From assembly GCA_017458195.1 (NCBI GenBank), contig JAFTGI010000112.1:1-35488 (forward strand): 35,488 nt of DNA. Direction: 5' to 3'. A model generated the notes under the pieces. It made no database searches. It was not told the origin of the DNA and was given only the letters and a program-made list of their open reading frames with translations. This document shows, in pieces, positions 30,568 through 35,442 of the stretch; position 1 is the first letter of the stretch; each line of letters opens with the position of its first letter. Source of the stretch: Prevotella sp. Lineage in GTDB: Bacteria > Bacteroidota > Bacteroidia > Bacteroidales > Bacteroidaceae. The position numbers were made by a program, and so were the translations under genes.

Positions 30568-33500
30568 ATGTATAAACGAATATCTATTTTGTGGATATTT
30601 TTGCTGCTGGCCGTCAGTGCGGCTGTTGCGCAAACGAAGATAACGGGCACCGTTGTGGAATCTGACGGTGAACCGGCTATTGGCGCTACGGTGCAAGTGC
30701 AGGGCAGCAAGACTGGGACTGCCACCGACATCAACGGCCACTTTGCCATTGAGGTACCTCAGGGGAAGAAACTCGTTTTCAGCTATGTTGGCATGGCCAC
30801 ACAGACACTGTCGCCCCGCAACGGCATGCGAGTCGTCTTGCAGCCTGACCAGGCGCTGATGGTCGAGGAGGTGGTGGTCACCGGCATGCAGAAGGTGGAT
30901 AAGCGCACGTTCACCGGATCGACGACCAAGGTGAACGCTGCCGACGCCAAGATTGACGGCGTGGCCGACATCAGCCGTGCCTTGGAGGGCCGCGCTGCCG
31001 GCGTCTCCGTCCAGAACGTCAGCGGCACGTTTGGCGCAGCCCCGAAGATTCGCGTGCGTGGTGCCACGAGCATCTACGGCGCGTCGAAACCCCTGTGGGT
31101 GGTCGACGGCGTCATCCTGGAGGACGTCATCGACGTCTCTGCCGACGATCTCTCCTCGGGCGATGCCAACACGCTCATCTCGTCGGCCATTGCCGGCCTG
31201 AACTCCGACGACATCGAGTCGTTCGAGGTGCTGAAGGATGGTTCTGCCACCTCAATATATGGCGCGCGCGCAATGGCCGGCGTCATAGCCGTGACCACCA
31301 AGAAAGGCCGTGCCGGCCACAACCGCATCAGCTATACGGGTGAGTACACCATGCGTCTGAAACCTTCCTATCGCACCTTCAATATCATGAACTCGCAGGA
31401 CCAGATGTCGGTCTATCAGGAGCTGCAGCAGAAGGGCTACCTGAACTACGCCGAGACGGCCAACACCTCCGAGAGCGGCATCTACGGCAAGATGTATCAG
31501 ATGCTGTCGCAGTACGACCCCGTGACCAAGACGTTCGCCCTCGACAACAGCGACGCGGCCATCGCCGATTATCTGCGGGCCGCCGAATATCGCAATACCG
31601 ACTGGTTCGACCGCCTTTTCTCCACGGCCATACAGCACAGCCACTCCGTCTCGATGGAGGGCGGATCAGACAAGACCACCTACCGCGCATCGGTCAGCGC
31701 ACTGATGGATCCGGGCTGGACCAAGCAGTCGAAGGTGGAGCGCTACACGGCCAACATCAATGCCGACTTCAACCTGTCGAAGCAGCTGGCCTTGAAGGTC
31801 ATCTCGAGTACGTCGTTCCGCAACCAGGAGGCCCCTGGCACGCTGTCGCGCTCCATCGACCCCGTGGCAGGCGGTGTCAGCCGTTCGTTCGACATCAATC
31901 CCTATTCCTACGCGCTGAACACCAGCCGTGCGCTGGATCCCGAAGCCTATTATACGCGCAACTACGCCCCGTTCAACATTTTCAACGAGCTGGCCAACAA
32001 CTACATCGACCTCAAGTCGAACGAGTTCCGCCTGCAGGGACAGCTGACGTATAAGCCCATCCGCAAGGTGGAACTTGTAGCGCTGGGCTCCATCCGCAAC
32101 GTCACTACTTCGCAGGAGCATTTCATCCGCGAAAACTCCAACCAGGCCATGGCCTACCGGGCGATGGACAACTCTACGATCCGTTCGCGCAATCCTTATC
32201 TTTATTTAGACCCTGACAACATCTATGCACTGCCCGTCTCCGTGATGCCCGAAGGCGGCATCCTGCGCCGGACGGACAACAACATGTTCAGCTATAACTT
32301 CCGTGCCTCGGGCAGCTATAACGACGTCTTCGCCGAGCTGCATCAGGTGAATCTCTATGCCGGTATGGAGGTGACGTCGCTCAAGCGCCATTCAAGCGAG
32401 AATACCGACATGGGCGTGCTTTTCGACAGCGGCATGCTGCCGAACTTCAACTATTTGGCCTTCAAGCAGATGCAGGAGCGCAACACCAGCTACTACGGAC
32501 TGAGCGACACCCGCGAGCGCACGGCCGCCTTCTTTGTCAACGCCACCTATACGTTTAACCGTCGCTACGTCCTGAACGGCACCTTCCGCTACGAGGGTAC
32601 CAACCGCATGGGCCGCTCGCGCTCTGCCCGCTGGCTGCCCACGTGGAACGCCTCGGCCCGCTGGAACATCGACGAGGAGACGTGGTTCGAGCGTCTTGAG
32701 CCCGTGATGAGCAGTCTGTCGCTGCGCGCCAGCTATTCGCTGACGGCCGACCGCGGTCCTTCCGACGTGACCAACTCCACCGCCATCATCGTGCCGACGA
32801 CGCTCTGGCGCCCCTTCACCAGCGTCACCGAGAGCGGTCTCGTCATCGACGCACCGGCCAATGCCGATCTGACCTACGAGAAGAAGCACGAGCTGAGCAT
32901 CGGTCTCGATGCCGGTTTCTTGGACAACCGCATCAACCTGACCTTCGACTGGTACAAGCGCAACAACTTCGACCTGATCGGCCCCATCTTCACCGCAGGC
33001 TATGCCGGTGGCGGCGTCACGCAGCGGGCCAATACGGCCGAAATGACGGCCGACGGCGTCGAGGTGAGCCTTTCGACGGTGAATATCAAGAACAAGCACT
33101 TCACGTGGACCACCAGCTTCGTCTACTCCCACACGCACAACAAGGTGACGCGGCTCATGTCGCGCAAGCGCCTCATCGACCTGCTGACCAGTTCGAGCGA
33201 GGCCAGCCTTGAGGGCTATCCCGTCAACAGCTTGTTCTCCATTCCCTTTGCCGGACTCAACAAGGAGGGTCTGCCCACCTTCAGCGTCGGCAACGGTCAG
33301 ACCACGACGACCGGCATCTATTTCCAGGAGACCGACCCCGAGGAGATGGCGTTCCTCAAGTATTCAGGCACCATCGACCCCTCCGACATGGGATCGCTGG
33401 GTAATATCTTCAAGTACAAGGGCCTGACGCTCAATCTGTTCCTGACCTATTCGTTCGGCAATGTCATCCGGCTCGACCCCGTTTTCTCGAACACCTACAG

Positions 33501-35346
33501 TGACCTGACCGCCATGCCGAAGGAGTTCAAGAACCGCTGGATGGTGCCCGGCGACGAGAAGTACACCGACATTCCCGTCATTGCCAGTTCGCGCCAGAAC
33601 CGCAACGACACCGACCTCAGTTATGCCTACAATGCCTACAACTACTCGACGGCCCGCGTGGCCAAGGGCGATTTCGTGCGCATGAAGGAAATCTCGCTCA
33701 ACTACGACTTCCCCCGCACGCTGGTAGCCCGCTTGGGCCTGACCACCCTCGGACTGAAACTTCAGGCCACCAACCTGTTCCTGCTCTACAGCGACAAGAA
33801 GCTGAACGGTCAGGATCCAGAGTTCACCAACAGTGGTGGTGTTGCAGTGCCTATGCCTAAGCAGTTTACGTGTACGCTGCGGGTGGGTCTGCTTCTCCTT
33901 TCCCTCCTTTTATTTTCCTGCGACAGCTATCTTGACGAGATGCCGGACAACCGCATGGAGGTCACGACGATTGAAGACGTGCAGAAGCTGCTCGTCACGG
34001 CTTACCCGACCAATGAGCCCATGCTCGTGGCTGAGTTCATGAGCGACAACGTTGACGACTACGGCAGCAATAATCCCAACACGTCGCGATTCATGGACCA
34101 GCTGTTCTACTGGCGCGACGTCACCGAGGCCAACAACTCGAGCCCCGAGAACTTCTGGGAAGACTGCTACGAGTGCATCGCCACGGCCAACCAGGCTTTG
34201 CAGTACATCGACGAGCTGTCGGCCGAGAACGCCAGTGCCACCCTTTCCGAGAGCCGCGCCGAGGCCTTGCTTTGCCGGGCCTACGCTCACTTCATGCTGG
34301 CCAATATGTTCTGTCAGGCCTATTCGCCTGCGACGGCCGAGTCGAACCTCGGCATCGTCTACATCGACAGCCCAGCCCCCGAGCTCACGTATAACCCCGA
34401 CCGCGGCACCCTGGCCGATGTCTATCGCCACATCGACCGCGACCTGCAGGAGGCGCTCCCCTTGGTGGGCAGCAACTACAGCGTGCCCAAGTATCACTTC
34501 ACGCCGCGTGCGGCCTATGCGTTTGCGGCCCGTTTCTATCTCTATGCTGAGCAGTGGGACAAAGCCATCGAATATGCCAACCTCTGTCTGGGCAGTGCGC
34601 CGGAGAGCCTGCTGCGCGACTGGGACTATATGGCCACGATGACGCAGACCTATGAAGCCCTCTCGCAGCACTACATCGACGCCTCGCTCAACTGCAACCT
34701 GCTCATGCTGACGGCCTATTCTGCCATGGGCCTCTGCTTCGGGCCCTACCGCTACATGTCGAAGTATTCCCACGGACAGTATCTGGCCCGCCACGAGACC
34801 AGCGAGGCCCTCAACATCTGGGGCAATGCCGACTATTTCCAAGGCACCCACACCTATTCGGCCACCAATCTGGACAAGACCGTCTTCTGGAAACTGCCCT
34901 ATCTCTTTGAATATGCCGACCCCGTGGCCGGTACGGGCTATTACCGCACGGTCTATCCCGCCTTCACGACCGACGAGTGCCTGCTGAACCGCGCCGAGGC
35001 CTACGTGCTGACGGGCCGCTACGACGAGGCTGCCCGCGACCTGACGGTCTGGATGCAGAATATCGTCGACACCTATGAGGAGCTGACCCCGCAGTTCATT
35101 ACCGACTTTTATAATGACGTCGACTATTCCTACAGCGACGACCTGCACATCAGTTCCACCATCAAGAAGCACCTGAACCCCAAGTTCGACATCGGGGCCG
35201 AGGGCGAGATGAAGGAGGCCATGCTGCAGTGCGTGCTGGGTTTCCGCCGAATCGAGACGTTGCAGGCCGGCCTCCGCTGGTACGACATCAAGCGCTACGG
35301 CATCGAGGTGGTGCGCCGCGTCATCAATGCCGCCGGCGAGCCCTAG
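30568..35346 (+). CDS. SusC-like TonB-dependent receptor continuous with SusD-like lipoprotein
   Basis: One open frame of 1592 codons holds two normally separate proteins. Residues 1-22 are a signal peptide (MYKRISILWIFLLLAVSAAVAQ). About 25-100 is a carboxypeptidase-regulatory-like domain, VEEVVVTGM near 107 is the TonB-box/plug junction, and the plug (GRAAGVSVQNVSG, IRVRGATS) leads into a beta-barrel ending at about residue 1107 (PMPKQFTCTLRVG). Without a stop the frame enters a lipoprotein signal LLLLSLLLFSC and then CDSYLDEMPDNR, a SusD/RagB N-terminus. SusC barrels import glycans with energy from TonB, and SusD is the surface lid. The start is ATG 30568; upstream starts overlap the promoter. 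The frame ends at a TAG that looks premature. Confidence 0.85.
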   Translation: MYKRISILWIFLLLAVSAAVAQTKITGTVVESDGEPAIGATVQVQGSKTGTATDINGHFAIEVPQGKKLVFSYVGMATQTLSPRNGMRVVLQPDQALMVEEVVVTGMQKVDKRTFTGSTTKVNAADAKIDGVADISRALEGRAAGVSVQNVSGTFGAAPKIRVRGATSIYGASKPLWVVDGVILEDVIDVSADDLSSGDANTLISSAIAGLNSDDIESFEVLKDGSATSIYGARAMAGVIAVTTKKGRAGHNRISYTGEYTMRLKPSYRTFNIMNSQDQMSVYQELQQKGYLNYAETANTSESGIYGKMYQMLSQYDPVTKTFALDNSDAAIADYLRAAEYRNTDWFDRLFSTAIQHSHSVSMEGGSDKTTYRASVSALMDPGWTKQSKVERYTANINADFNLSKQLALKVISSTSFRNQEAPGTLSRSIDPVAGGVSRSFDINPYSYALNTSRALDPEAYYTRNYAPFNIFNELANNYIDLKSNEFRLQGQLTYKPIRKVELVALGSIRNVTTSQEHFIRENSNQAMAYRAMDNSTIRSRNPYLYLDPDNIYALPVSVMPEGGILRRTDNNMFSYNFRASGSYNDVFAELHQVNLYAGMEVTSLKRHSSENTDMGVLFDSGMLPNFNYLAFKQMQERNTSYYGLSDTRERTAAFFVNATYTFNRRYVLNGTFRYEGTNRMGRSRSARWLPTWNASARWNIDEETWFERLEPVMSSLSLRASYSLTADRGPSDVTNSTAIIVPTTLWRPFTSVTESGLVIDAPANADLTYEKKHELSIGLDAGFLDNRINLTFDWYKRNNFDLIGPIFTAGYAGGGVTQRANTAEMTADGVEVSLSTVNIKNKHFTWTTSFVYSHTHNKVTRLMSRKRLIDLLTSSSEASLEGYPVNSLFSIPFAGLNKEGLPTFSVGNGQTTTTGIYFQETDPEEMAFLKYSGTIDPSDMGSLGNIFKYKGLTLNLFLTYSFGNVIRLDPVFSNTYSDLTAMPKEFKNRWMVPGDEKYTDIPVIASSRQNRNDTDLSYAYNAYNYSTARVAKGDFVRMKEISLNYDFPRTLVARLGLTTLGLKLQATNLFLLYSDKKLNGQDPEFTNSGGVAVPMPKQFTCTLRVGLLLLSLLLFSCDSYLDEMPDNRMEVTTIEDVQKLLVTAYPTNEPMLVAEFMSDNVDDYGSNNPNTSRFMDQLFYWRDVTEANNSSPENFWEDCYECIATANQALQYIDELSAENASATLSESRAEALLCRAYAHFMLANMFCQAYSPATAESNLGIVYIDSPAPELTYNPDRGTLADVYRHIDRDLQEALPLVGSNYSVPKYHFTPRAAYAFAARFYLYAEQWDKAIEYANLCLGSAPESLLRDWDYMATMTQTYEALSQHYIDASLNCNLLMLTAYSAMGLCFGPYRYMSKYSHGQYLARHETSEALNIWGNADYFQGTHTYSATNLDKTVFWKLPYLFEYADPVAGTGYYRTVYPAFTTDECLLNRAEAYVLTGRYDEAARDLTVWMQNIVDTYEELTPQFITDFYNDVDYSYSDDLHISSTIKKHLNPKFDIGAEGEMKEAMLQCVLGFRRIETLQAGLRWYDIKRYGIEVVRRVINAAGEP

Positions 35347-35442
35347 TACTACACCGACATGCTCCGCGTCGACGACCCGCGGCGCGCCGTCCAGATTCCA
35401 ATCAAGGTGCGCACTGCCGGCGTCACGCCGAACCCGCGATAG
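33853..35442 (+). pseudogene. SusD-like lipoprotein module with in-frame TAG
   Basis: An in-frame ATG at 33853 would give MPKQFTCTLRVGLLLLSLLLFSC: basic residues, hydrophobic core and lipobox LFSC with Cys23, a workable lipoprotein signal. After it come the SusD helices and TPR-like region (ANQALQYIDELSA, ALLCRAYAHFMLANMFCQAY, PRAAYAFAARFYLYAEQWDKAIEYANLCL). The frame meets TAG at 35344, but the next 31 codons to TAG 35440-35442 read YYTDMLRVDDPRRAVQIPIK and then VRTAGVTPNPR. That is the usual SusD C-terminus (DDPR-AIQ-P-E...G--PNPR). So one codon, probably GAG or CAG, has become TAG. SusD-like proteins bind glycan at the cell surface and close over SusC. The glycan target is not evident. Confidence 0.75.

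Follow-up and report, generated by a model that had tools for sequence, protein, structure and literature searches.

A fused susC–susD frame in Prevotella as a probable scar of a lost pair of dispersed palindromic elements

In a 35,488-base stretch of DNA from a Prevotella sp. (the window, which is the whole of contig C200 in a MAG of 238 contigs that is 76% complete), susC and susD occupy one open frame, which starts at the susC ATG (30568), passes through SusC, a hydrophobic stretch with a lipobox and then SusD, and closes at a TAG (35344–35346). We think it probable that a real deletion at an inverted pair of dispersed palindromic elements fused what had been a normal susC–susD pair, and the locus has the look of damaged genes rather than of a novel type of transporter. 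At the joint, which lies about 1.6 kb from the contig end, PKQFTCTLRVG is followed directly by LLLLSLLLFSC. The fused chain matches TIGR04056 at residues 25–1108 (630.5 bits for the SusC half, against a curated cut-off of 368.25; E = 6.6e-189) and PF14322 at residues 1122–1326 (125.3 bits for the SusD half, against a curated cut-off of 27; E = 4.5e-36), and the SusC half also matches PF07715, PF00593 and PF13715. With the frame open as far as the TAG and both profiles in one chain, the claim of a first-pass annotation that SusC and SusD share a single open reading frame is borne out. By profile, both halves are ordinary members of SusC/SusD (RagA/RagB) pairs, in an operon of the SusC–SusD–Peptidase_Mx1 (TIGR04549) type. 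In contrast to ordinary pairs, the window has no susC stop and no susD start with a normal context; the SusD lipoprotein signal lacks its beginning, and susD carries a premature TAG (Table 1).

Table 1. Features of the fused locus in the window, with examples of element-bearing frames and extended SusCs from other loci
Feature	Position	Strand	Basis or remark
susC (SusC/RagA TonB-dependent transporter)	30568..33880	+	Start codon to about the last base aligning with the nearest relatives' SusC
Internal ATG, proposed nested SusD start	33853..33855	+	Context poorer than 49/49 relatives' SusD starts
Remnant of palindromic element 3' end, GGGTGGGTCT	33881..33890	+	At breakpoint; in frame, most of V-G-L in ...LRVGL
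Retained hydrophobic core and lipobox of SusD signal, LLLSLLLFS-C	33892..33921	+	Sequence; alignment with relatives' lipobox Cys
Lipobox Cys codon	33919-33921	+	Aligned with relatives' lipobox Cys
susD mature part, without own start and last 31 residues	33919..35343	+	PF14322; relatives' identity
Premature TAG in susD	35344..35346	+	Conserved C-terminus beyond, in frame to TAG 35440-35442
Palindromic element copy where contig ends	35453..35488	-	Pattern match with 2 mismatches; matrix rank 1
Element-bearing ORF examples, own genome	L193:1446-2846; L190:1570-2934; L188:1428-2993; L125:1390-3159; L163:1501-2472		
SusC OmpA extensions	L061:3111-3668 (G233); L063:892-1437 (G158); L069:3004-3549 (G111); L070:3083-3640 (G210)		

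A recount of SusC ends across all fetched loci, made without requiring a stop, gave 56 distinct SusC-end motifs. In 51 of these the frame stops 7 residues past the motif, in four it runs on for about 170 residues, and in one, that of the window, it continues for 491 residues into SusD; none of the 55 further ends in the fetched loci, stop or no stop, is a SusC–SusD fusion. The window SusC thus fails to end with its last barrel strand, a rule that is not strict, as four of the 56 ends carry an OmpA domain. Within the MAG itself, one of 29 SusD-like_3 matches lies in a long frame, the window's (1630, with 741 for the next), and of the 32 SusC matches that pass the cut-off, the longest frame after that of the window is 1176. 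Open frames of 1636–1653 aa in G293, G160 and G252 were considered as further fusions and rejected, each having one or two in-frame stops between SusC and SusD. Scanning the named genomes returned 15 loci with relatives of the window SusD (26–78% identity), and the nine above 50% identity come from Prevotellaceae, Prevotella, Bacteroidaceae or Hoylesella, several of them MAGs from deer rumen, reticulum or abomasum, which suggests that the window, too, comes from a Prevotella of the gut or rumen; a scan of viral contigs found no relative. A literature search that took in few subscription papers and no preprints found nothing on SusC–SusD fusions, and a broader search around SusC–SusD with the same coverage had nothing pertinent among the matches listed. 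The first-pass annotation had stated that SusC normally stops after its last aromatic strand and that SusD has its own ATG. Relatives do end SusC with a stop and start SusD separately, but their last SusC residue is rarely aromatic (L in 28, I in 21, M in one and F in one of the 51 that stop). SusCs of other groups in the same genome, on contigs C126 and C227, end in F.

Compared with these relatives, the window lacks sequence at the joint. The distance from the SusC stop to the lipobox Cys codon is 72–213 nt (median 90) at 49 junctions selected for having a stop, whereas 27 nt separate the last SusC-like Leu codon of the window from its lipobox Cys codon. The gap is seen in alignment with G251, G041, G297 and G129, and the missing stretch amounts to about 48 nt against the tightest relative and 74 to 134 nt against the four nearest. 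G041 and G297 match the window up to CTGCG at 33881 and then diverge.

The point of divergence coincides with the edge of a dispersed, GC-rich palindromic element. A pattern for this element, built from copies already seen and therefore describing that pattern and not every variant, has 101 matches in the genome with two mismatches allowed, as against one for the reversed control. When scored with a matrix made from 43 copies elsewhere in the genome, the joint (33877–33894) reaches 20.1 bits and ranks second among 70,942 positions on both strands, behind the copy at the contig end and ahead of a third-ranked site at 12.8 bits; the best of 53 SusC ends of relatives scores 5.6. About 10 nt of the element remain at the joint. 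Elsewhere in the genome the element commonly occurs in inverted pairs: 28 of the 39 copies with at least 260 nt of upstream sequence are so arranged, forming 14 pairs with 60–143 nt between cores. With up to three mismatches allowed, the genome has no second copy of the retained susD signal sequence. Repeats within the window alone give no explanation of the joint, and the DNA folding predicted for the joint, the contig end and a string resembling the element is not significant against shuffled sequences. Close relatives also carry the element (matches/control: G041 21/3, G297 12/1, G382 5/1, G251 25/2), as do 91 of 200 genomes drawn from the genus, this one included, when at least one match with one mismatch is counted, although single matches could be chance. 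Papers on such repeats in Prevotella were absent among the matches listed by a literature search that covered few subscription papers and no preprints.

At two other susC–susD junctions of the genome, inverted copies of the element lie on either side of the SusD start. On C126 and C227 the order is SusC stop, inverted copy, SusD start and a second copy within the SusD signal; the left copy starts at the SusC stop codon or a few bases past it, and the right copy is read within the SusD signal peptide, in frame and immediately ahead of the lipobox. In these signals the element encodes the approach to the lipobox, as APLPWGGVGGGLVSC and APLPWGGVGVGLSSC (L125 ~1270–1540, C126; L122 ~2050–2410, C227). 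By pattern, one of 28 other SusD loci in the genome (C126) has the element upstream; C227 was recognised by eye. In G129, the orthologous junction carries two copies, the first following the SusC stop and the second within the SusD signal. The junction that comes next in the window operon, between the susD stop at the end of C200 and the gene at the start of C44, very probably shares this two-copy layout. C44 (7554 bases) starts inside an element copy that sits in the signal of a Peptidase_Mx1 lipoprotein, the product of the third operon gene in relatives, and this contig very probably continues the window operon. The SusD signal peptides of the close relatives G251 and G382 (L032, L074) contain low-complexity repeats of the TTATCATTTATC type.

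Palindrome-associated deletion is a known process. Because element pairs are so placed in other loci, the deletion in the window ends, on the left and on the right, near the outer limits expected of such a pair. We propose that a normal susC–susD pair lost a short stretch at an inverted pair. Its left copy would have started at the SusC stop or directly behind it, and its right copy would have been read in frame as part of the SusD signal. The loss would have removed the final codons of SusC together with its stop, the spacer, and the SusD start with the beginning of the SusD signal. Nearly the whole element pair would have gone with them, leaving the roughly 10 nt at the joint as the outer end of the right copy. 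We infer both the earlier pair at this locus and its loss in the organism. Against this model, the susC–susD interval of the four closest relatives (G041, G297, G382 and G251) is without the element, the remnant in the window is short, and few other SusD loci of the genome have the element upstream. Nevertheless, the suggestion in the first-pass annotation of a deletion that fused the genes finds support in the stop and separate SusD start of relatives, in the palindromic repeat edge at the joint and in the pairs so placed in other loci.

The same deletion could have arisen in the library or the assembly, with a polymerase or assembler jumping the GC-rich inverted pair while the living cell keeps two normal genes. 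We regard this as possible but unlikely. The MAG is fragmented into its 238 contigs, and both C200 and its likely neighbour C44 end in element copies, so assembly does fail at the element in this very operon. Both susD lesions, moreover, are found in the last 1.6 kb or so of the contig, and another susC of the MAG (G000:C47:22500-25600, L166) is broken into three reading frames, either as a pseudogene or through an error of assembly. On the other hand, fourteen inverted pairs were assembled intact in the sampled loci, the sequence visible at the joint appears too short for a simple k-mer collapse, and a jump at the joint does not account for the separate TAG in susD.

This TAG, the second susD lesion, is followed by a conserved C-terminus that continues in frame to the TAG at 35440. 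Over the 32 columns from the premature stop on, conservation is 0.72, compared with 0.73 for the rest, in 20 distinct SusD relatives (a motif filter yielded SusD from 25 of 38 loci, 20 of them distinct). The tail being as conserved as the remainder, 31 constrained SusD residues are lost. Up to that point, susD is open for 475 codons with a low dN/dS, which is not expected of a long-dead gene. The window SusC is 91% identical at the amino-acid level to those of G041 and G297 (dN/dS 0.08 against G041), and the window SusD is 83% identical to that of G041 (dN/dS 0.14), as compared with 0.05–0.36 for SusC and 0.10–0.48 for SusD between intact relatives; for these substitution comparisons, and for those of start context, susC was taken from 30571, one codon past the ATG. 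Positions that are invariant in six others and changed in the window number 10 of 682 in SusC and 3 of 277 in SusD, and with every relative treated likewise the counts are 1–48 and 2–21, respectively. With so little excess change, either the lesions are recent, or the pair still works, or the lesions are not in the organism.

One way for the pair to work would be a nested arrangement, raised in the first-pass annotation, in which SusD is made from an ATG inside the end of susC (Table 1) with the lipoprotein signal MPKQFTCTLRVGLLLLSLLLFS-C. The peptide so produced, though a chance one, has basic residues, a hydrophobic core and LFS-C ahead of mature SusD. We nonetheless consider this arrangement quite improbable, and the comparison with relatives weakens it. 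The ATG is an ordinary SusC codon, with PMPK at this place in 32 of 49 relatives, and its surroundings are worse than those of all 49 relatives' SusD starts (for each, the in-frame ATG closest to a point 21 residues ahead of the Cys was taken) with respect to A content, A+T content and predicted folding. The 20 nt upstream hold 5% A, as against a median of 50% in the relatives, none of which is as low; A+T content is below that of every one of them; and the segment from -35 to +25 folds at -13.1 kcal/mol, against a median of -2.3, with none of the 49 as stable. Positions -3 and -6 are not A, whereas A occupies them in 31 and 29 of 49 relatives. In Flavobacterium johnsoniae, adenines at -3, -6, -12 and -13 are described as favouring initiation (PMC6847099). 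Even if started at this codon, the product would still be without the SusD C-terminus.

The remaining way to a working pair is a functional SusC–SusD chain, whether left whole or cut at the lipobox by signal peptidase II, and here the four related SusCs with extended C-termini are informative. Each extension, of about 170 residues, consists of a linker of coiled appearance with an OmpA domain (PF00691; E = 2.6e-14 to 5.5e-14), and each is followed by a separate SusD frame of 532–550 aa. OmpA domains are periplasmic, and a SusC extended in this way would be tied to the cell wall. Because four relatives bear such a domain there, the SusC C-terminus is placed in the periplasm; these cases show that a C-terminal extension can be tolerated, yet they put it on the periplasmic side. 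SusC is described as a 22-strand barrel (PMC12611786), and SusD as a lid on the outside of the cell, held at the surface by an N-terminal lipid anchor (PMC7782687). The topological objection to a single chain in the first-pass annotation is therefore strengthened. Although the frame is kept across the joint, the lipobox is retained and OmpA-bearing SusCs make a C-terminal extension possible in principle, we give a working chain almost no credence, because the SusC C-terminus is periplasmic and SusD is lipid-anchored on the outside, and also in view of the lack of a second fusion among the 56 SusC ends, the wrong orientation in which an internal site in a secreted chain would meet signal peptidase II, and the truncation of SusD.

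If a deletion fused the pair in the organism, SusD, which is also truncated, would no longer reach the surface as a lipoprotein, and SusC would carry a hydrophobic stretch and a SusD remnant on its periplasmic end. SusC may still assemble, given that related SusCs tolerate an OmpA domain there, but it would do so without its lid. SusD is probably dead, because 31 conserved residues are cut off and the internal ATG has a poorer context than the starts of 49 relatives. Loss of surface SusD is the most likely outcome, and the susC–susD pair is probably a recent pseudogene, intact copies of which are present in relatives.

More broadly, the element itself appears to enter proteins. Half of the 44 distinct copies sampled from the genome (22) fall, in frame, among the first 50 codons of an ORF that is 120 aa or longer, as compared with 6 of 44 for the opposite strand of the same copies; some of the 22 are probably not genes. 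For 10 of the 22 in-frame copies, the pattern finds an inverted partner ahead of the ATG. A scan of ten of the 22 element-bearing ORFs assigned Pfam domains to all ten. Just 2–7 residues separate the element peptide from the start of the domain in MurD, SufD, a pyruvate formate lyase-like protein and an ABC ATPase, a spacing that makes translation of the element very probable as judged from sequence. Near the N-termini of unrelated proteins the element often reads TPLP[HR]REGxGVGLL, and sometimes an inverted pair straddles the start codon.

REPINs are inverted pairs of short palindromes present in many copies. The Prevotella element shares with REPINs and MITEs its many copies and its inverted pairs (28/39); the genome has a single Y1_Tnp match, which is not linked to the element. 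Protein-coding repeats have reportedly been seen in Wolbachia. A closer parallel is with Rickettsia palindromic elements (RPE), described as dispersed palindromic repeats that lie in frame inside unrelated proteins (PMC10969869, PMC3733652). Like RPE, the Prevotella element has many dispersed palindromic copies that are in frame in genes of known families, a likeness by description. In contrast to RPE and the Wolbachia repeats, it occurs in another phylum, is mostly N-terminal and often forms inverted pairs that flank the start codon.

We lean, somewhat narrowly, towards a general model for Prevotella genomes, in which an RPE-like element that codes for protein occurs in inverted pairs placed around start codons. 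In such a pair, the left copy would abut the upstream stop, and the right copy would join the next N-terminus, where it would supply the hydrophobic stretch of lipoprotein signals, that of SusD among them, and their approach to the lipobox. In this model, the SusC–SusD fusion would be the scar of a lost pair, and the element would both build and destroy gene boundaries in nutrient-uptake operons. One practical implication is that a SusC–SusD single chain annotated in a MAG can be a deletion scar or an artefact at a repeat. Of more interest than the fusion is the element, which offers, in a large gut and rumen genus and thus beyond Rickettsia and Wolbachia, a testable case of N-termini and signal peptides that are encoded by a repeat.
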